DNA of 64,000 nt, from contig NZ_MAEI01000002.1 in the NCBI RefSeq assembly GCF_009933255.1, forward strand, positions 1-64,000. Direction: 5' to 3'. The stretch comes from Enterococcus diestrammenae. GTDB taxonomy: Bacteria; Bacillota; Bacilli; Lactobacillales; Enterococcaceae. Shown piece by piece: positions 4,545 through 13,660 of the stretch; the first letter of the stretch is position 1; each line of letters starts with the position of its first letter. The translations under genes and the position numbers were made by a program. Under the pieces are notes generated by a model, which was not told where the DNA came from, did not search any database, and saw nothing but the letters and a program-made list of their open reading frames with translations.

Positions 4545-6730
4545 TCGCACGCATTCGTCAGAAAGGGTTTTATGGTTTGGCGGCTTTTGTGGCGCTAGCC
4601 GTGGTGATGAATCAGTTTTTGGCAGTTTATCGGTTTAATGATCATGAAACAGCTATTTATCTTGTCGGTATCATTTGTTTTATTTTTGTCGCCCTCCCAC
4701 GATTCTGGTTGCGGGGACCTTTTGCTTTACTCGCTTTGTTAGTAGCGGGATACCAATACTTCCCTTTAGGACAAAGTTTTGGGCTTGATTGGTTGGTCGC
4801 TTTACAACGGCAACTGCGTCCTTTGGTTTTCGCAGTACAACAAGATGGCTTGGGACGCACCCCGTCGTTATTGGCTTTTAGTTTGATTTTTAGCGGGGTA
4901 GCTCTTTTAGCCCTTTTAATCATTAATTATGAGCATTTTTTAGTGAGCTACAGTGGTTTGTTATTGTATTTGGCGATGTTGGCGGTGTTTAATCACTTGG
5001 ATTTGGTTTGGCAGCTGTTGCTAGTCTGTGGCTGTGGCTTGCTGTCTTCTGGGTTGAAACAGCATCGCCAAAGAGGCGGGCAGGCCAATTTTAGCTACCT
5101 GTTGGCAGCTGCCATCCTCTTGGGAGTATTAGGTTTTGCTGCTGATAAAGTACCAGATGCCCTGGTGCGAGACCGGCTGTCGGCCCAGACCGTTGCAGTA
5201 CGAGATTATTTTAATGCTGCGGGTTTATATAGCTATATCGAAAGAGTAGGCGTGGGGGGCAATAGTCGGACCGGCTTTAGTGAAGATGATGAAGCGTTAG
5301 GAGGGGCCTTGCTAGATGATGAGACCGTATTGTTTGAGGCCCAACAGTTACGACCTCATTATTGGCGGGTGGATAGCAAGGATTTTTATACTGGCAAAGG
5401 CTGGCAGCGAACAACTGCAAGTGAAGGCCAAGTTATTATGGAGAGCCAATTTACCTTGGAGGCCGAAGCGGTAGGGGTTCCCTTTTTAGAGGTTCAGCAT
5501 ATTGATCTGACCTTTCATCAAGAAGAAAACTATCTGCCACTACCTTATGGGTACAATCAGGTGTATTTGGCTGCTGGCTTTGCTGGTTTTGTGTATGCGC
5601 CAGATCAGCGGCGGGTGGATTTATTAGCCCGAGGTGGTGGGGAACCAAGTGTGGAGATTGCCTCCTTAGAACCGATTTATGATGTTGCTAGTTTGCAAAA
5701 GGTTCCGTTGACCAATCCTTCGACAGATACGATTGATTATCTGCAGTTACCCGCTAATTTCCCTATGCGGATTCGAGAGCTAGCCGGGAGAGTCACTGCA
5801 GAAGCGACAACCTTGTACGACCAAGTGACTGCTGTGGAAAGCTATTTGAGTCAATCTGAAGCATTTCGTTATTCCAAAGTGGATGCCGTGGCACCGTTGC
5901 CGGATCAGGATTATGTGGATCAATTTTTATTTGAAACCAAAGTTGGTTACTGTGATAATTTCTCGACGGCGATGGTAACGATGCTCCGAAGCTTAGGGAT
6001 TTCAGCACGTTGGGCAAAAGGGTTTAGTCAGGGGACAGCGATTCCAAGTTTTGATGAACGGAAAACCTATGAAATTAAAAATTTAAACGCCCATTCGTGG
6101 CCGGAAGTTTATTTTGAAGGCTTTGGCTGGGTGCCTTTTGAACCCACCCCTTCCTTTAGTAATCCTCAACGACCAGGCAATGCTGAGGCTGCTACTGAAG
6201 AATCAGTTGCCGCTGGTGTAGCTGACACTAGTACTGAGTCCAACAGTAGTGAAAGTCAGGCAACTTCAGCGACTACTAGTCAGAGTACTAGTGAAAGTGC
6301 TCTGACTAGTGACACAGCAGGAAAAGCCGATCCAAATGGAAAGAGTCGGATTGGCACATGGAAACTCTGGCAAGTGGCACTGCTGTTTGCCTTTGCGCTA
6401 GTGATCGTGGCAGGGGGCACTTGTCTCTGGTATTTTCAGATCAAGCTAGGTCTCTGGCTTAGGCTCCACTTGTATCGGCGCCCCTATGAACAGGGTTATC
6501 TCTTCTTATTGAAAGAGGCGGAAAAATGGCTGCCGCGACAATCCTCAGAAGACTTGACGAGCTATAGCGAAAAACTGGCAAAAGCCTATCCCGAGACTGC
6601 CGCCTTTAGTCAATTGACGAAAACCTACGAAGAGCACCTGTACCAAGGTCGCGAGCTGGGGGCGGCCAGTCGTGAGTTACTATGGCTAGTGGCGGATCAA
6701 CTCACCGCCTTGAAAAAAACGCAGCGTTAA
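4541..6730 (+). CDS. Transglutaminase-like membrane protein (TgpA type)
   Basis: A 729-residue protein. About six hydrophobic segments in residues 10-200 are followed by an extracytoplasmic region with a transglutaminase-like core. C471 (in VGYCDNFST) and H518 (in NAHSWPEV) fit the Cys-His pair; E534 (PFEPT) sits where an Asp is usual. A Ser/Thr-rich linker (about 550-595), one membrane helix (about 608-630) and a cytoplasmic C-terminal tail resembling DUF4129 follow. It ends the moxR-DUF58 operon. TgpA-type proteins are thought to cut or crosslink cell-surface proteins or peptidoglycan; no substrate can be inferred here. Confidence 0.85.
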   Translation: MIARIRQKGFYGLAAFVALAVVMNQFLAVYRFNDHETAIYLVGIICFIFVALPRFWLRGPFALLALLVAGYQYFPLGQSFGLDWLVALQRQLRPLVFAVQQDGLGRTPSLLAFSLIFSGVALLALLIINYEHFLVSYSGLLLYLAMLAVFNHLDLVWQLLLVCGCGLLSSGLKQHRQRGGQANFSYLLAAAILLGVLGFAADKVPDALVRDRLSAQTVAVRDYFNAAGLYSYIERVGVGGNSRTGFSEDDEALGGALLDDETVLFEAQQLRPHYWRVDSKDFYTGKGWQRTTASEGQVIMESQFTLEAEAVGVPFLEVQHIDLTFHQEENYLPLPYGYNQVYLAAGFAGFVYAPDQRRVDLLARGGGEPSVEIASLEPIYDVASLQKVPLTNPSTDTIDYLQLPANFPMRIRELAGRVTAEATTLYDQVTAVESYLSQSEAFRYSKVDAVAPLPDQDYVDQFLFETKVGYCDNFSTAMVTMLRSLGISARWAKGFSQGTAIPSFDERKTYEIKNLNAHSWPEVYFEGFGWVPFEPTPSFSNPQRPGNAEAATEESVAAGVADTSTESNSSESQATSATTSQSTSESALTSDTAGKADPNGKSRIGTWKLWQVALLFAFALVIVAGGTCLWYFQIKLGLWLRLHLYRRPYEQGYLFLLKEAEKWLPRQSSEDLTSYSEKLAKAYPETAAFSQLTKTYEEHLYQGRELGAASRELLWLVADQLTALKKTQR

Positions 6731-6802
6731 GTGCCCACAAGCTTTGGAGCTGATGTTTGGAAAAAGTGAATTTTTGGCACCATCGAAAATGATCTGACGC
6801 TT

Positions 6803-6850
6803 GCTAGACCATCAAATGGCAAAGGAAGACTAATTTGCTGGTCTAGCTTT
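6803..6850 (+). terminator. Hairpin after the transglutaminase operon
   Basis: GCTAGACCA (6803-6811) pairs with TGGTCTAGC (6839-6847), and GCAAA (6819-6823) pairs with TTTGC (6834-6838) inside it. It is followed by TTTTAAA. It is a plausible terminator, though the T-run is short. Confidence 0.6.
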
Positions 6851-6853
6851 TAA

Positions 6854-6985
6854 ATGGAAGACAAAGTTGTAAAGAGAATCAATCGATTAGCGACGAAACA
6901 GAGAGAGTTGCTGGAGGGGGATTCTCCGGAGGCAATTTTGCTCTGTTTTCGTGATGAAACGATCCGTCAAATCGTTGTTGGCTAA
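6854..6985 (+). CDS. Possible 43-residue small protein
   Basis: An ATG-started frame that begins right after the hairpin at 6803-6847 and encodes a charged 43-residue peptide (starts MEDKVVKRINRLA, ends IRQIVVG). No ribosome binding site is visible, because the hairpin's descending strand lies where one should be. The start (KRIN-LA-KQ) and the FRDETIRQI segment faintly recall the DUF896/YnzC family, so it may be a decayed copy, but the resemblance is weak. The rest of the 332-base gap between genes shows no other gene. Confidence 0.25.
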   Translation: MEDKVVKRINRLATKQRELLEGDSPEAILLCFRDETIRQIVVG

Positions 6986-7062
6986 CCCTTTTCCTGAGGG
7001 ATTTACAAATAAGTCGCCTTATGTCAAGATAGAAGGAAAATGATGTGAAAGCCGGTGAGTAA

Positions 7063-7620
7063 ATGATTGTAGTCAGAACAGCAACGCCCCGAGATGCCGA
7101 GGCTTTAGTTGCTATTTATCAACCTTATGTGTTGGAAACAGCCATTACTTTTGAATATCATGTACCGACGATTGCGGAGTTTTCACGACGAATTAGCCAG
7201 ACGTTGGCGCGCTATCCCTTCCTTGTCGCTGAACGCGCTGGAGAAATAGTTGGCTATGCCTACGCCGGTGCATACAAAGGACGCAGTGCTTATGATTGGA
7301 GCTGTGAGGTGACGGTCTATGTCAAACAAGGGATTCAAGTGAAAGGCATCGGGAGTCGTTTGTATCAGGAATTGGAACGTTGCTTGGCCAAACAGCAAGT
7401 GGTCAATTTGACGGCGTGTATCACAGAAGGTAATCAAGGCAGCGTCGCCTTTCATGAAAAATTTGGCTACCAACAAGTGGCGCGCTTTCCCAAAATTGGT
7501 TACAAATTTGGCAAGTGGCACGATGTCCTATGGTTGCAAAAAGCACTCCAAATACCTACGAATCCTCCCAAAGCCTTTCGTCCGTATCCCGATAGCTACC
7601 ACGAATCAGTAAAAATGTAA
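7063..7620 (+). CDS. GNAT-family N-acetyltransferase (Pat/YncA type)
   Basis: A 185-residue acetyltransferase of the phosphinothricin/methionine-sulfone type. Recognisable parts are the N-terminal RTATPRDAEALVAIYQPYV segment, GYAYAG with the AYDWSCEVTVYV strand near 65-85, the acetyl-CoA-binding GIGSRLYQEL loop near 98-107, and FHEKFGYQQVARFPKIGYKFGKWHDV near 130-157. Relatives acetylate small amines, amino-acid analogues or glufosinate-like molecules. Start ATG 7063 has only a modest site (GGTGAG) close by, so translation may be weak. It appears monocistronic. Confidence 0.88.
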   Translation: MIVVRTATPRDAEALVAIYQPYVLETAITFEYHVPTIAEFSRRISQTLARYPFLVAERAGEIVGYAYAGAYKGRSAYDWSCEVTVYVKQGIQVKGIGSRLYQELERCLAKQQVVNLTACITEGNQGSVAFHEKFGYQQVARFPKIGYKFGKWHDVLWLQKALQIPTNPPKAFRPYPDSYHESVKM

Positions 7621-7635
7621 TCGAAGGCTTTTTAG

Positions 7636-7663
7636 TTTACATTTTTTCAGAAAGTGCTATGAT
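7636..7663 (+). promoter_or_regulatory. Promoter of tRNA-Glu(CTC)
   Basis: TTTACA-N16-TATGAT, with the tRNA 5' end 22 nt after the -10 box. A dyad, TTTACAT (7636-7642) and ATGTAAA (7668-7674), brackets the promoter and could be an operator. Confidence 0.55.
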
Positions 7664-7685
7664 AGCCATGTAAAAGATACCGCAT

Positions 7686-7757
7686 GACCTGTTAGTCAAG
7701 GGGTTAAGACGCCACGTTCTCAGCGTGGAGGCACGGGTTCGAATCCCGTACAGGCTA
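7686..7757 (+). tRNA. tRNA-Glu (anticodon CTC)
   Basis: A 72-nt cloverleaf without an encoded CCA end. The acceptor arm is 7686-7692 with 7750-7756, the D stem is GTC/GAC, the anticodon arm is 7712-7716 with 7724-7728, and the TTCGAAT T-loop is 7738-7744. The anticodon CTC is at 7719-7721. The second acceptor pair is an A-C mismatch (7687 with 7755) and the first is G-T. CTC is the less usual glutamate isoacceptor in low-GC Firmicutes, where TTC normally reads both codons. The gene has its own promoter and terminator and lies outside any rRNA or tRNA cluster. Confidence 0.9.
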
Positions 7758-7765
7758 TACTTATC

Positions 7766-7805
7766 GTGGGAGTTGTCGCAATTGCGATGGACTCCCACTT
7801 TTTTT
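7766..7805 (+). terminator. Terminator of tRNA-Glu
   Basis: GTGGGAGT (7766-7773) pairs with ACTCCCAC (7791-7798). An inner TCGCA/TGCGA stem and seven T after the hairpin complete it. Confidence 0.9.
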
Positions 7806-7843
7806 AGCTAAGCCGGTTTTTTTTAGCTTTTGTGAAAAAACGG

Positions 7844-7849
7844 TATAAT
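7844..7849 (+). promoter_or_regulatory. -10 box of the LevR-type regulator gene
   Basis: TATAAT with only a poor -35 (TTTTAG) at the right distance. Transcription from here gives a leader of about 90 nt that contains the mirror-image hairpin at 7876-7894. Confidence 0.55.
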
Positions 7850-7875
7850 AGATACAGCAAATAAGCTCGCAGTTG

Positions 7876-7894
7876 CCACGCTGAGAACGTGGCG
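7876..7894 (+). repeat. Exact reverse complement of the tRNA-Glu anticodon arm
   Basis: These 19 bases are the exact reverse complement of 7710-7728, the anticodon arm of tRNA-Glu(CTC) plus two bases. On its own the element folds as CCACG-loop-CGTGG with loop CTGAGAA. It overlaps an alternative pairing of GTTGCCA (7872-7878) with TGGCAAC (7912-7918), so two exclusive leader folds are possible. It lies in the leader of the LevR-type gene, about 54 nt before the start codon. The function is unknown. Confidence 0.75.
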
Positions 7895-7947
7895 GCAGAA
7901 GCGGTATTAGATGGCAACAGTGGTTTCTAGGTAGAAAGGAGCGTTTT

Positions 7948-10920
7948 ATGAAACGCAGTGAACGGGTTTTTGCCTTTGTTCAATCAAAAGCCAACAATCG
8001 TAGCGCGCAAACTGAGGATAGCGGCGTAACAACGCAAGAGGTAGCGCAGGCGTTGGGAATTCAACGTCCCAATGCCAGCAAAGACCTCAATAGCTTGGTG
8101 CGGGCTGGCCGCATCCAAAAAAGTGATAGCCGGCCAGTACGCTATTACGTCAGCGCTGATATCCAAGCAGCCCCAAGGCATACGGATTTCGGTAGCGAGG
8201 GGCTGGCTGCAAAAACTGTCAGCGGGAACGGTAACGCTCGTGGAGATAGCCAAAGTAATGGCACGCCCTCAGCTAATCAGGGGGATAAGTATGTCGCTAG
8301 CTATATGGAATCACCAGACAGTCCCTTTCTCACGAAGCCGACAGCTGGCAGGCGTTATGGGGCGTTACCTGAGGAGCAGGATATTTTTGCACGTCTTATC
8401 GGGGTGAATGGCAGTATGCGTAATGCCGTCGAACAGGCCAAAGCCGCAATTTTGTATCCGCCAAAGGGTTTAAATTGTTTGATTACTGGTCCGACGGGTT
8501 CAGGGAAGACCTACTTTGCCCACGCCATGTTTCGCTTTGCAGTCAACAGTGGGGTCATCAGCGGGGATAAAGAGTTAATCGTCTTCAACTGTGCCGACTA
8601 TGCCAATAATCCAGAGCTGTTAATGAGTCATTTGTTTGGTTATGCCAAGGGGGCTTTTACCGGTGCTGAGCAAGACAAATTAGGGATTATCGATCAAGCT
8701 GATGGTGGGATCCTCTTTCTGGATGAAATCCACCGCCTACCGCCAGAAGGACAAGAGATGGTCTTTTACTTCATGGATCATGGTACCTATAGCCGTTTAG
8801 GTGAAAGTGCCAAAAAGCACCAAGCCGACGTGCGAATTATCGGCGCGACAACGGAAGATCCAGGTTCCAGTTTGTTGGCGACTTTTGTCCGACGAATTCC
8901 CATCAATATTACCTTGCCGGCGTTTAATCAACGACCAGCCAGTGAACAATTGGAGCTGGTGAAGATGATGGTCGCGCAAGAAGCTGGCCGGATTCAACGA
9001 CGGATTTCCGTGACGGAAGATGTGATTCGTGCCTTGATTGGCAGTGTCAGCTATGGCAATATCGGCCAGTTGAAATCCAATATTCAGTTGGTTTGTGCCC
9101 GCGGTTTTTTGAATCATATGCATCAAGCGGAAATCGCCATCACGATGGAGGACGTGCCTGAAGGGATTCGTTCAGGAATCGTTGCCCTTACCAAAGAACG
9201 GGAAAAAAATGCCGAGCTCTCGAAGATTTTGGAACCACGAATTTTAGTGGACCCTCATGAAAACTTATTGGATATTAAAACAGATGCTTATGAATTGCCT
9301 TATAACCTTTATGACATCATCGGGGATAAGGCAGCTTTGTTAGCTGCTGATGGCTTGGATCAAGAAGCGATTAACCAGTTTATTACCACCGATATCAATA
9401 TCCATCTAAAATCTTTCTATAAAGATCATGGCTTCACCTTTAATGCCGAAAATAAATTGGCTGAGTTTGTTGAAGAAAAAATTATCGATACCACCAATCA
9501 TATTTATGAAATGCTAAAAGATCGGCTAGGCTATGATTTGCAACAAAACTTCTTATACGCCATGAGCCTCCACATCAGTTCATTTTTGAAAAAATTAGCC
9601 AGTGGAGAAGAACGTCAAACCAACGATAATATCCGGCAAATGGTAGCGGCTTATCCCGAAGAGTTTCGGATTGCCCAGAGCATTCGTGAGTATTTGTCGC
9701 AAGTTTTTCAAGTGCGCATTCCCGTGAGTGAAGATTATTATTTGGCAGTCTTGTTGATCTCTTTGGTGGCGAATCAAAAAGAGGGAAAAATCGGCGTAGT
9801 CGTAGCGGCTCACGGAGAAACTACGGCTAGCAGTATGGTGAAAGTGGTTACCCAACTTTTGGGAGTGGATCAAGTTCAAGGGGTAGATATGCCCTTAGAT
9901 ATGTCTCCTCAAATTGCTCTGGAGAAAATCAAACAAGCAGTGACGCAAGTTTCTGAGGGAAGTGGCGTCTTGTTATTAGTGGATATGGGCTCATTGGCGA
10001 CCTTTGGCAAAACCATCACTCATGATACAGGGATTGAAGTGCGGACCGTTGATATGGTAACCACTGCCCTCGTATTAGAAGCTGTTCGTAAAGCTAGTGT
10101 CTTGGGAAGTGACTTGGATTCAATCTATGATAGTTTGAAATCTTTCAATGGCTATGGCTCTGGCGAATTGACAGCCGCTGCTACTCCCCATAAACCACCG
10201 GCTTTGCTGGCGATTTGTGCATCAGGGGAAGGGACTGCAATTCGCATCAAAGAAATGATTCAACGGGCCTTGACCGACCAACAGCAGCAGGAACTGATGG
10301 TACTGACTCAATCAGTAGTGGATTTGAAACAACGCTTGCCTCAATTAAAGGAAAATTACCAGATCATCGCCTCCACCGGTATCGTGGATCCCAAGCTGGC
10401 GGCGCCGTTTATTCCCCTTGATCAGTTTATCGATGCCGATGTCGGGGACTTAATCAGTCGCTTATTGGCGGAAAATGGTAAGGCCCCAGAAGCGGTGAGC
10501 CCTGCTGTGACAAATGAGCAAATTCAGATTACCGCTATGAACTTTATTGAAGAAAACTTTACCTTTCTCAATGTCAAAAAACTGTTTCCGTTGATTTGGG
10601 GCTTTGTGGAAGAACTAGTCGCCGCCTGTGGTTTTGCGGGAGAAAATAGTCAGCCGCTAAAAATCAACCTAGCCATGCATACAGCAGGGATGATTGAACG
10701 GATGTTGGTAAAGGAACCCTTGAGTATCACCCCAGATCAAGAAGCGCAATTATTAGCGGAACCTTTTTATCAACGGTTGCACTTACACATGCAATCCTTT
10801 GAACGGCAATTACGTTTAAAAGTCCCATTACAAGAAGAGTATTATGTGATGGAAATCCTTAAGCTCAAAGGTGTTGAGGCGGAGTCGCCGGCTTTAGATG
10901 CTATTGACCAGTTTGAATGA
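7948..10920 (+). CDS. LevR/ManR-type sigma-54 activator with PRD and EII-like domains
   Basis: A 990-residue activator of the downstream mannose PTS. Domain order: N-terminal winged helix (about 20-68), sigma-54 AAA+ domain with Walker A GPTGSGKT near 181 and GAFTGA near 235-240, PRD1 with H542 (FLYAMSLHISSF), EIIA-man-like domain with H622 (VVAAHGE), EIIB-like domain with C757 (AICASGEG), and PRD2 with H911 (NLAMHTAGM). In LevR, ManR and MptR proteins these residues are phosphorylated by HPr and EII components, so activity follows sugar flux. The start has a good AAAGGAG site. The gene is followed by a long hairpin and then the -24/-12 promoter it should activate. Confidence 0.93.
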   Translation: MKRSERVFAFVQSKANNRSAQTEDSGVTTQEVAQALGIQRPNASKDLNSLVRAGRIQKSDSRPVRYYVSADIQAAPRHTDFGSEGLAAKTVSGNGNARGDSQSNGTPSANQGDKYVASYMESPDSPFLTKPTAGRRYGALPEEQDIFARLIGVNGSMRNAVEQAKAAILYPPKGLNCLITGPTGSGKTYFAHAMFRFAVNSGVISGDKELIVFNCADYANNPELLMSHLFGYAKGAFTGAEQDKLGIIDQADGGILFLDEIHRLPPEGQEMVFYFMDHGTYSRLGESAKKHQADVRIIGATTEDPGSSLLATFVRRIPINITLPAFNQRPASEQLELVKMMVAQEAGRIQRRISVTEDVIRALIGSVSYGNIGQLKSNIQLVCARGFLNHMHQAEIAITMEDVPEGIRSGIVALTKEREKNAELSKILEPRILVDPHENLLDIKTDAYELPYNLYDIIGDKAALLAADGLDQEAINQFITTDINIHLKSFYKDHGFTFNAENKLAEFVEEKIIDTTNHIYEMLKDRLGYDLQQNFLYAMSLHISSFLKKLASGEERQTNDNIRQMVAAYPEEFRIAQSIREYLSQVFQVRIPVSEDYYLAVLLISLVANQKEGKIGVVVAAHGETTASSMVKVVTQLLGVDQVQGVDMPLDMSPQIALEKIKQAVTQVSEGSGVLLLVDMGSLATFGKTITHDTGIEVRTVDMVTTALVLEAVRKASVLGSDLDSIYDSLKSFNGYGSGELTAAATPHKPPALLAICASGEGTAIRIKEMIQRALTDQQQQELMVLTQSVVDLKQRLPQLKENYQIIASTGIVDPKLAAPFIPLDQFIDADVGDLISRLLAENGKAPEAVSPAVTNEQIQITAMNFIEENFTFLNVKKLFPLIWGFVEELVAACGFAGENSQPLKINLAMHTAGMIERMLVKEPLSITPDQEAQLLAEPFYQRLHLHMQSFERQLRLKVPLQEEYYVMEILKLKGVEAESPALDAIDQFE

Positions 10921-10980
10921 CGAGATGAAGTGCCCGTATGAATGACAGGATCATCAGCTAAAGGATTCTTAAAAGTAAGA

Positions 10981-11024
10981 AAAACACACTAAACGATACA
11001 GTGTATCGTTTAGTGTGTTTTTTC
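10981..11024 (+). terminator. Perfect 19-bp hairpin with T-run after the regulator gene
   Basis: 10981-10999 pairs perfectly with 11003-11021 around a 3-nt loop, followed by TTTTTTC. It looks like a strong bidirectional terminator separating the regulator from the PTS operon. Its apex contains the 10-mer ACAGTGTATC that recurs at 11052-11061, so it may also serve as an upstream activator site. Confidence 0.8.
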
Positions 11025-11061
11025 TTAATCTGGATTAAGGTTGATTTAACAACAGTGTATC
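10998..11061 (+). promoter_or_regulatory. Candidate upstream activator sites for the LevR-type protein
   Basis: The 10-mer ACAGTGTATC occurs at 10998-11007 and 11052-11061, 54 bp apart and just upstream of the sigma-54 promoter. The first copy is part of a palindrome. Activators of this family bind such enhancer sites. The assignment is by position and repetition only. Confidence 0.4.
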
Positions 11062-11070
11062 TTTTAAAAG

Positions 11071-11087
11071 TTGGCACGCATTTTGCT
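11071..11087 (+). promoter_or_regulatory. Sigma-54 (-24/-12) promoter of the mannose PTS operon
   Basis: TTGGCAC-N5-TTGCT type match, with the invariant GG at 11073-11074 and GC at 11085-11086 exactly 12 bp apart. This fits the consensus and the sigma-54 activator gene upstream. Confidence 0.92.
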
Positions 11088-11178
11088 TATTAATTAAGTG
11101 AGACAGTAGCTAGGTCTTGTAGTTGGTATTGCTGAGACCAATACCTGGGTGCATTGGATAGGGGGGATCGCCATTAGT

Positions 11179-11682
11179 GTGGATATACGTTTGGCTCGGA
11201 TTGACGATCGTTTAATCCATGGACAAGTGGCCACCGCTTGGTCCAAACAAACCGGTGTCAACCGGATCATCGTCGTCAGTGACGAGGTTGCCAATGACCC
11301 ACTTCGGAATTTTCTTCTCAGAGAAGCTGCGCCACCTGGGATCAAAGTCAATGTCATCGATACGCAAAAAATGATTCGCCTGTTTTTTTCTGGCTTACTG
11401 GCAGGGGAACGTTTGATGCTGTTGTTTACCAAACCACAAGACGTCTTGCGGTTGGTGGAAGCAGGGGTGACACTGACTGTCGTCAATATTGGTGGAATGC
11501 GCTATCTTACGGGAAAAAAGATGATCACCAATTTTATTTCGGTGGACGAAGAAGACATTCGCTGTTTCAGACTTCTTGCCCAGCATCAGGTCGCTTTGGA
11601 AGTACGGAAAGTACCCGGTGATCGCAAACTCGATTTGATGGAGTTGTTGGCCAAGGAGGAAGCCAAATCGTCGTTACAATAG
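11179..11682 (+). CDS. Mannose-family PTS EIIB (stand-alone)
   Basis: A 167-residue EIIB. The phosphorylated histidine is H14 in RIDDRLIHGQVAT. The family starts at the first beta strand, so GTG 11179 is chosen; it lies 10 nt after GGGGGGAT, whereas the frame opens earlier at GTG 11149. It is the first gene after the -24/-12 promoter. E. faecalis-type mpt operons carry the same extra EIIB ahead of EIIAB. It shares residues with the EIIB half of the next gene but is diverged, with a hydrophobic LFFSGLL insertion. It may have a regulatory rather than a transport role. Confidence 0.88.
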   Translation: MDIRLARIDDRLIHGQVATAWSKQTGVNRIIVVSDEVANDPLRNFLLREAAPPGIKVNVIDTQKMIRLFFSGLLAGERLMLLFTKPQDVLRLVEAGVTLTVVNIGGMRYLTGKKMITNFISVDEEDIRCFRLLAQHQVALEVRKVPGDRKLDLMELLAKEEAKSSLQ

Positions 11683-11832
11683 TCATCTGTTTTAAGCCCT
11701 TATTCTTTTCGACGACTGTTGTTAATGAAATTGTGTCACCTTTTAAATAGATTACATCTGTTTAAAAGCCCCGAGATGTCGTGGCAAGTCAGCCCTGCAT
11801 CTCAGTCAAAAAATGAAATAGGAGGTAGACAA

Positions 11833-12825
11833 ATGGTAGGAATTATCCTAGCGAGTCACGGCGAGTTTGCTGAAGGTATTTTGCAATCAGGATCGATGAT
11901 TTTTGGTGAGCAAGAAAACGTCAAGGCAGTTACCTTGATGCCTTCAGAAGGTCCCGATGACATCAAAGCTAAAATGGAAGCGGCAATTGCCACTTTCGAT
12001 GACCAGCAGGAAGTTTTGTTCTTGGTGGATCTATGGGGTGGGACACCTTTCAACCAAGCAAACAGCTTGTTTGAAGCCCACAAAGAGACTTGGGCAATCG
12101 TTGCCGGCATGAATTTGCCAATGGTGATTGAAGCCTATGCCTCTCGTTTCTCCATGAACAAAGCCCAAGAAATTGCCGCTCATATTTTGGAAACGGCAAA
12201 AGAAGGGGTACGTATCAAACCAGAAGAGCTGGAACCCGCTGAAACAGCACCACAAGCAGCTGCGGCACCAGTAGTCCAAGGCGCTATTCCGCCAGGGACC
12301 GTTTTAGGGGATGGCCATATCAAATATGTGTTGACCCGGATTGACTCTCGTTTGCTTCACGGCCAAGTAGCGACAGCATGGACCAAATCAGTACTCCCTT
12401 CACGGATTATCGTCGTCTCCGATGCGGTAGCAAAAGACGATCTGCGTAAGAAACTGATCGAACAGGCTGCTCCTCCAGGGGTCAAAGCCAATGTCGTGCC
12501 AGTGGACAAAATGATTGAAGTTGCCAAAGACCCACGCTTTGGGGATACGAAAGCCTTGTTGCTTTTTGAAAACCCCCAAGATGTGGTGCGGGCAATGGAT
12601 GGTGGCGTCGACATTAAAGAAGTCAACGTCGGTTCGATGGCTCACTCTGTCGGCAAAGTGGTTGTAAGTAAAGTGTTGTCTATGGGAGATGAGGATGTCA
12701 AAGCCTTTGAAACCATGAAAGAACGCGGTGTGACTTTTGATGTTCGGAAAGTGCCAAACGATTCCAAAGACAATATGGATGAAATCCTGAAAAAAGCTAA
12801 AGCTGAGTTAGCAGCAAATAAATAG
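11833..12825 (+). CDS. Mannose-family PTS EIIAB
   Basis: A 330-residue two-domain cytoplasmic phosphotransferase. The EIIA domain is residues 1-135 with H9 (ILASHGEFAEG). An Ala/Pro-rich linker covers about 137-158. The EIIB domain is about 162-330 with H176 (DSRLLHGQVATAW). It passes phosphate from HPr to mannose or glucose entering through IIC-IID. ATG 11833 follows AGGAGG at 11820-11825; the longer open frame from 11719 has no support. The 150-base space before it holds an imperfect hairpin (GAGATG pairing with CATCTC) that could be a processing or attenuation site. Confidence 0.95.
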   Translation: MVGIILASHGEFAEGILQSGSMIFGEQENVKAVTLMPSEGPDDIKAKMEAAIATFDDQQEVLFLVDLWGGTPFNQANSLFEAHKETWAIVAGMNLPMVIEAYASRFSMNKAQEIAAHILETAKEGVRIKPEELEPAETAPQAAAAPVVQGAIPPGTVLGDGHIKYVLTRIDSRLLHGQVATAWTKSVLPSRIIVVSDAVAKDDLRKKLIEQAAPPGVKANVVPVDKMIEVAKDPRFGDTKALLLFENPQDVVRAMDGGVDIKEVNVGSMAHSVGKVVVSKVLSMGDEDVKAFETMKERGVTFDVRKVPNDSKDNMDEILKKAKAELAANK

Positions 12826-12847
12826 TCAAATAGGAGGGAAAGATATC

Positions 12848-13660
12848 ATGAGCGATTTAAACATTATTCAAATGATATTGGTGGTTCTAGTAGCCTTTCT
12901 AGCTGGTATGGAAGGGATTTTGGATGAATTCCAATTCCACCAACCACTAGTAGCTTGTACATTAATCGGATTGGTAACTGGTAATTTAACTGCCGGTATC
13001 ATGCTAGGTGGCTCTTTGCAAATGATCGCCTTAGGTTGGGCGAACATCGGGGCAGCCGTGGCACCAGATGCTGCCTTAGCATCCGTTGCTTCTGCAATTA
13101 TTTTAGTTTTAGGTGGGCAAGGAGAAGCGGGGATTCCTTCCGCAATTGCCGTAGCCGTACCGTTGGCTGTTGCCGGTTTGGCTTTGACTATGGTGGTTCG
13201 GACGTTAGCCGTGCCAATCGTTCACATTATGGATAGTGCCGCTGAAGAAGGGGATTACCATAAAATTGAATTGTGGCATATTATTGCCATCTTGATGCAA
13301 GGGATTCGGATCGCCTTGCCAGCTGCGTTGCTTTTGTTTATCCCTGCTGAAACTGTCCAGAGCTTCCTACAAGCCATGCCTGCATGGTTGACTGATGGGA
13401 TGGCTATCGGTGGTGGGATGGTAGTAGCCGTGGGTTATGCCATGGTTATCAACATGATGGCTACCAAAGAAGTTTGGCCTTTCTTTGCGATTGGTTTCGC
13501 TTTGGCGGCTATTTCCCAATTGACTTTGATTGCCTTAGGTGTGATCGCTGTTTCCTTAGCCTTCATTTACTTGAACCTGTCTAAATCTGGTGGTTCTGGT
13601 TCTGGTGGCTCTAGCAGCAATACTGGTGACCCATTAGGCGACATTTTGAACGACTATTAA
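12848..13660 (+). CDS. Mannose-family PTS EIIC
   Basis: A 270-residue integral membrane component, the sugar-conducting channel with EIID. Multiple hydrophobic helices run through residues 5-240. GGSLQMIALGWANIGAAVAPDAALASV near 55-81 is typical of the mannose IIC family. The C-terminal tail is Gly/Ser-rich (about 245-262), a known variable feature. It has a strong AGGAGG site and lies in tight linkage between EIIAB and EIID. IIC/IID proteins of this family are also receptors for class IIa bacteriocins in enterococci and listeriae. Confidence 0.95.
   Translation: MSDLNIIQMILVVLVAFLAGMEGILDEFQFHQPLVACTLIGLVTGNLTAGIMLGGSLQMIALGWANIGAAVAPDAALASVASAIILVLGGQGEAGIPSAIAVAVPLAVAGLALTMVVRTLAVPIVHIMDSAAEEGDYHKIELWHIIAILMQGIRIALPAALLLFIPAETVQSFLQAMPAWLTDGMAIGGGMVVAVGYAMVINMMATKEVWPFFAIGFALAAISQLTLIALGVIAVSLAFIYLNLSKSGGSGSGGSSSNTGDPLGDILNDY

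Follow-up and report, generated by a model that had tools for sequence, protein, structure and literature searches.

The tRNA-Glu(CTC)-mptR interval

The window analysed here is a stretch of 64,000 nt of Enterococcus diestrammenae contig NZ_MAEI01000002.1 (assembly GCF_009933255.1; positions 1 to 64,000, forward strand), in which a tRNA-Glu(CTC) gene lies upstream of mptR (Table 1). The product of mptR was originally predicted to be a LevR-type PTS activator, an assignment that holds given its Sigma54_activat, PRD and EIIA-man domains and the mannose-family PTS genes that follow it, an arrangement matching the description of mptR in E. faecalis (PMC8262876); the available part of that paper contains none of the words tRNA, leader and untranslated. 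Besides ARAGORN, the Rfam tRNA model recognizes the tRNA gene, scoring 56.7 bits on 7686-7757. As an observation in its own right, the acceptor stem of this tRNA (7686-7757) combines an A2-C71 mismatch, also marked by Rfam, with a G1-U72 wobble in 9/9 genus copies; unlike the acceptor mismatch, the arm stem shows compensatory changes among these copies, and an extra Glu tRNA with a conserved mismatched acceptor may be worth attention.

Table 1. Features of the tRNA-Glu(CTC)-mptR region (positions of the window).
Feature	Position	Strand	Remarks
tRNA-Glu(CTC) gene, probable source of the copied arm	7685..7758	+	ARAGORN
Arm 1, anticodon arm	7710..7728	+	Repeat search; stem 7712-7716/7724-7728, loop TTCTCAG 7717-7723
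Probable terminator of the tRNA transcript	7766..7804	+	Hairpin of -21.8 kcal/mol, then T-run; absent from simple terminator scan
Probable -10 box of mptR, TATAAT	7844..7849	+	Between arms 1 and 2; -35 box not clear
Competing long-range stem	7872..7918	+	GTTGCCA 7872-7878/TGGCAAC 7912-7918; predicted minimum-energy fold
Arm 2, exact reverse complement of arm 1	7876..7894	+	Local hairpin 7875-7880/7888-7893, loop CTGAGAA
mptR, LevR-type sigma54 activator	7948..10920	+	

An inverted-repeat search identified arm 2 as the exact reverse complement of arm 1 (19 nt, 100% complementary, 147 nt apart), the longest exact inverted repeat of the window at gaps of 20-1000 nt. The exact mirror of the anticodon arm that had been noted at this place, 54-72 nt before the mptR start codon, is thereby confirmed. 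The 19 nt of arm 1 consist of the 5-bp anticodon stem, the 7-nt loop and 2 flanking nt; since this arm is self-complementary (5-7-5), arm 2 again forms a hairpin, in which the stem is retained and the loop complements the anticodon loop.

T-rich-tailed hairpins like the probable terminator also lie 3' of this tRNA in E. asini and in genome G004, the 24-nt block holding the TATAAT box is 96% shared with G004, and GAAAAA..TATAAT-like blocks occur upstream of mptR in 8 of the 80 relatives compared (the best 80 of 327 mptR relatives). The terminator and the TATAAT block therefore make it probable that the tRNA and mptR are separate transcripts. With the promoter placed at this block, the mptR mRNA is predicted to begin near 7856 and would carry the mirror at roughly +20 to +38, so that the copied arm is probably transcribed as part of the leader. 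The location of the mirror in the mptR leader, as proposed originally, is thus likely from the blocks in relatives, although consensus promoter and terminator scans listed neither this TATAAT nor the 7766-7804 hairpin.

Other motifs around mptR deserve mention. Of the 80 relatives (L035-L114), 27 carry AGTGTATC or GATACACT in the ~210 nt preceding mptR, which suggests, at the level of sequence, that mptR may be autoregulated; AGTGTATC alone is not rare, with 2 occurrences in the window against 0.83 expected. Downstream, the 10980-11087 region holds a 21-nt perfect inverted repeat, AAAAACACACTAAACGATACA, with a gap of 1; AGTGTATC recurs there at 11054, and TTGGCACGCATTTTGCT at 11071-11087 resembles a -24/-12 element. 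The PTS operon thus probably has its activator site and its sigma54 promoter in this region. The mirror itself could in principle be a protein operator, CCACG-N7-CGTGG, whose resemblance to a tRNA arm is incidental: it is palindromic and sits just 3' of the probable promoter. We consider this most improbable and rejected it, because with at most one mismatch the palindrome shows no enrichment genome-wide (51 versus 59 in the control), none of the places listed lies upstream of the PTS operon, and in relatives it is AGTGTATC/GATACACT that occurs upstream of mptR.

Length of the match and its occurrence in relatives

Several comparisons bear on the possibility that the mirror is a chance match, within a leader already holding a GC-rich hairpin, whose apparent length is inflated by the palindromic stem. 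In dinucleotide shuffles of the 189-nt interval the longest tRNA complement was 11 nt, reached in 2 of 3000, and in 12 shuffled windows exact inverted repeats at gaps of 20-1000 nt did not exceed 15 nt. The loci of the 80 relatives (300,899 bases) contained four exact inverted repeats of at least 13 nt at gaps of 40-500 nt, the longest again of 15 nt. Complements within 300 nt of a tRNA were at most 11 nt long for 202 of the 203 distinct tRNA copies drawn from the window and loci L001-L034, the mirror being the sole exception. On the other side, because the anticodon stem is palindromic, 5 of the 19 positions are dependent on others and the independent information amounts to about 14 positions, which with the full discount gives an expectation of 5e-5 per tRNA-flank pair (naively 5e-8), or about 0.007 per genome assuming 70 tRNAs and two flanks; CCACG-N7-CGTGG palindromes are also neither rarer nor commoner in the genome than in the control. 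Since the window was chosen from a scan of many windows, chance retains a small weight, and we regard it as unlikely. The claim that such a match is very unlikely to arise by chance thus survives the comparisons with shuffles, relatives' loci and other tRNAs, but had overlooked the palindromic stem. The mirror is probably an event rather than noise.

A genus search gave a match in 10/10 genomes and this tRNA-Glu(CTC) in nine of them; the best match in G005 (79%) is at the level of tRNA-Glu(UUC). A tRNA lies at most 700 nt upstream of mptR in 4 of the 80 relatives, a count in which loci L062, L080 and L104 end early upstream and L059 is partly masked. All four are tRNA-Glu: that of E. asini is on the mptR strand and those of L039, L043 and L050 are on the opposite strand, 513-527 nt away. 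G004 is a second case of a same-strand tRNA just upstream of mptR, and the 72-nt tRNAs of E. asini (G001) and G004 are identical to that of the window.

The loop complement CTGAGAA does not occur on the plus strand of the ~3.1-kb loci of either E. asini or G004, and within the tRNA-to-mptR interval of E. asini complements to the tRNA reach 6 nt at most. The mirror is likewise absent from the 150-nt leaders of L039, L043 and L050. A second copy of the 17-nt core, with at most one mismatch, was found in no other of 105 family genomes, G001 and G004 having one match each, inside their own tRNA; nor was an exact second copy found in any other of 395 order genomes sampled from a larger group. Regarding covariation, the arms of the window, of the dispar type and of the songbeiensis type matched the 150-nt leaders of the 80 loci over at most 7 nt (L062 and L080 short, L059 masked in part).

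A conserved leader element was also considered and discarded: the best match outside the genome is 24 nt of the G004 promoter region, and no long relative was recovered. Leader searches at E up to 1 returned some match in 100 of the 105 genomes, those listed being short and many falling in the T-rich promoter-proximal part. MptR identity is 79.0% to G004 (414 aa, the nearest compared), 75.3% to E. asini and 71.5% to E. dispar, and the absence of the copy in relatives at these identities makes a gain in the window's lineage the simplest history. The expectation that relatives keeping both the tRNA and the regulator would also keep the complementarity fails in the two same-strand cases, E. asini and G004 (2/2).

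Leader folds and possible tRNA pairing or site-specific recombination

The alternative fold of the leader, GTTGCCA with TGGCAAC, had been described as overlapping the mirror, and it is indeed present. It excludes the local hairpin and is predicted to be the fold of minimum energy, at -26.7 kcal/mol compared with -24.3 when the local hairpin is enforced. The local hairpin pair has a predicted probability of about 0.11; with respect to the transcript end, the local hairpin is predicted to prevail up to 7920 and the long-range stem from 7925 on. Compared with shuffles, the entire leader folds modestly better (z about -2). Neither predicted fold contains a terminator or a changed Shine-Dalgarno hairpin, and so no output is visible; the switch suggested earlier is unsupported. 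As a separate observation, the G004 leader (L010) can form a long-range stem, CGGTCA/TGACCG, at positions similar to those of 7872-7918 but of other sequence, a hint from two sequences only that the long-range stem, and not the mirror, could be the older and possibly conserved element of mptR leaders.

It had also been proposed that the leader pairs with the tRNA or its precursor. The leader hairpin would then sense tRNA-Glu(CUC), either through kissing of its CUGAGAA loop with UUCUCAG or through 19-nt pairing with precursor or unfolded tRNA, and the ensuing shift of leader fold would tune MptR synthesis. The 7-nt loop-loop complement is complete and resides inside two hairpins, the two leader folds exclude each other, and the predicted energies are favourable: co-folding leader and tRNA gives -65.7 kcal/mol against -50.1 for the separate molecules, energies that ignore tRNA tertiary structure, and the predicted leader-tRNA duplex reaches -56.8, compared with a best of -41.1 and a median of -25.1 for the leaders of 79 relatives. 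Such strong predicted pairing is, however, to be expected from a 19-nt complement. Against tRNA sensing, the two same-strand relatives with an identical tRNA have not retained the complement, CTGAGAA being absent from both, and the two folds carry no terminator and leave the Shine-Dalgarno hairpin unchanged. Moreover, Rfam covariance models run on 7500-8300 at E up to 1 matched only the tRNA, the T-box model giving no match, so that a T-box or another known RNA family was dismissed. The proposed leader-tRNA pairing thus lacks support and we judge this sensing mechanism very unlikely; that the mirror would regulate mptR, or contact the tRNA at all, is not supported at the sequence level.

What the locus shares with T-box riboswitches is a codon-like triplet (GAG) in the leader of an mRNA, which could meet a tRNA anticodon. 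The differences are the absence of an Rfam match other than tRNA and of a terminator/antiterminator pair, a regulated gene that encodes a PTS regulator and not a function of amino-acid metabolism, and a complement that spans the whole anticodon loop. A literature search for leaders complementary to an anticodon yielded T-box, antisense-tRNA and unrelated work, among which there was no bacterial case of this kind.

A different possibility is that a tyrosine recombinase uses both arms as core sites, reading the 5-7-5 anticodon arm as an attachment core, so that recombination between them would invert the segment with the probable mptR promoter, as in an inverton, or that the copy is the leftover of an element at the tRNA. 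A dyad stem around the 7-bp anticodon loop corresponds to the canonical core with a 7-bp overlap of anticodon-arm attachment sites, as given in the available part of PMC8371274; here, in contrast, the second copy is inverted and close, and an element, an adjacent recombinase and a direct repeat were not seen. Inverted repeats around a probable promoter, whose assignment rests on the TATAAT block, are shared with the invertible promoters treated in the consulted portions of PMC11892184 and PMC8748976, from which our locus differs in having one arm within a tRNA gene and no recombinase nearby from the two families searched (PF00589 and PF00239). Invertons are often linked to recombinase genes in their vicinity (PMC11892184, in the part available). 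Matches over the cut-off to PF00589 do number 16 in the genome, and those to PF00239 number 9, but none is in the window and the sole match on the contig is ~249 kb away (C2:256341).

Inversion would also replace the 3' half of the tRNA and thereby break it, and an inserted element would leave direct and not inverted repeats. The arm has no third exact copy in the genome, where a single place resembles it with 2 mismatches (4 and 4 for the control with the reversed pattern), and attachment of a mobile element was discarded for lack of that third copy. The only viral contig with the 18-mer (L129) carries it inside its own tRNA-Glu(CTC), in the same anticodon arm; this contig also bears 20 tRNA genes in 14 kb (4565-13304). 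We consider site-specific recombination quite unlikely, and thus neither tRNA sensing nor site-specific inversion is a likely account of the repeat.

Probable origin of the inverted copy

We favour, with a probability of roughly 0.6, that the mirror is a lineage-specific inverted duplication of the tRNA-Glu(CTC) anticodon arm, probably generated by replication template switching. Synthesis in the leader region would have switched briefly to the opposite strand at the anticodon-stem segment of the tRNA and then gone back, leaving a reverse-complement copy ~150 bp downstream of its source. The copy would then be of recent origin and have no selected function. Consistent with template switching, the mirror is an exact reverse-complement copy of a nearby source, and the copy is derived, being absent from E. 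asini and G004 with their identical tRNA. As the related genomes checked have no copy, a recent accident of DNA copying looks more likely than a regulatory switch.

The original prediction had offered, besides regulation, a relic of recombination at the tRNA. This second idea, in the broader sense of a trace left by some event at the tRNA, accords better with the observations than regulation does, although not in the form of attachment-site duplication. Attachment-site duplication ordinarily gives direct repeats, and the inverted orientation of the repeat thus speaks for template switching instead.

Template switching makes reverse-complement copies and can create or edit RNA stems, including the inversion of a loop in Firmicutes, according to the available text of PMC8794818 (Monttinen and Loytynoja 2022). 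The likeness to those events, so far as that text describes them, resides in a short exact nearby copy, a hairpin and an inverted loop. No event accepted there is more than 8 bp away from its source, longer distances being possible according to its authors, whereas the arms described here are 147 nt apart, the copy leads from a tRNA arm into an mRNA leader, and the ancestral state is not reconstructed. Indeed, the leaders barely align and the nearest relatives are too diverged for the breakpoints to be reconstructed. GCTGA, which is visible by eye in the leaders of the window, E. asini and G004, might have acted as a primer for the change of template. Perfect identity of the copy to its source is, on the other hand, equally expected under selection.

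The mirror could also be a newly evolved, lineage-specific tRNA sensor, in which an inverted arm gained by one mutation would kiss the anticodon loop over 7 bp, in T-box-like manner without T-box parts, and so link tRNA-Glu(CUC) to the mannose-PTS activator. We hold this to be highly improbable; were it true, the leader would respond to a tRNA and yet differ from a T-box. Of both readings, only the template-switch copy is reasonably supported at present: the mirror is real, seen in one lineage only, and probably a mutational relic. Should it be a template-switch copy, it would stand as a clear candidate for a hairpin that arose in a bacterium in a single step, copied out of a tRNA gene into the leader of an mRNA, and would illustrate a possible origin of structured leaders.
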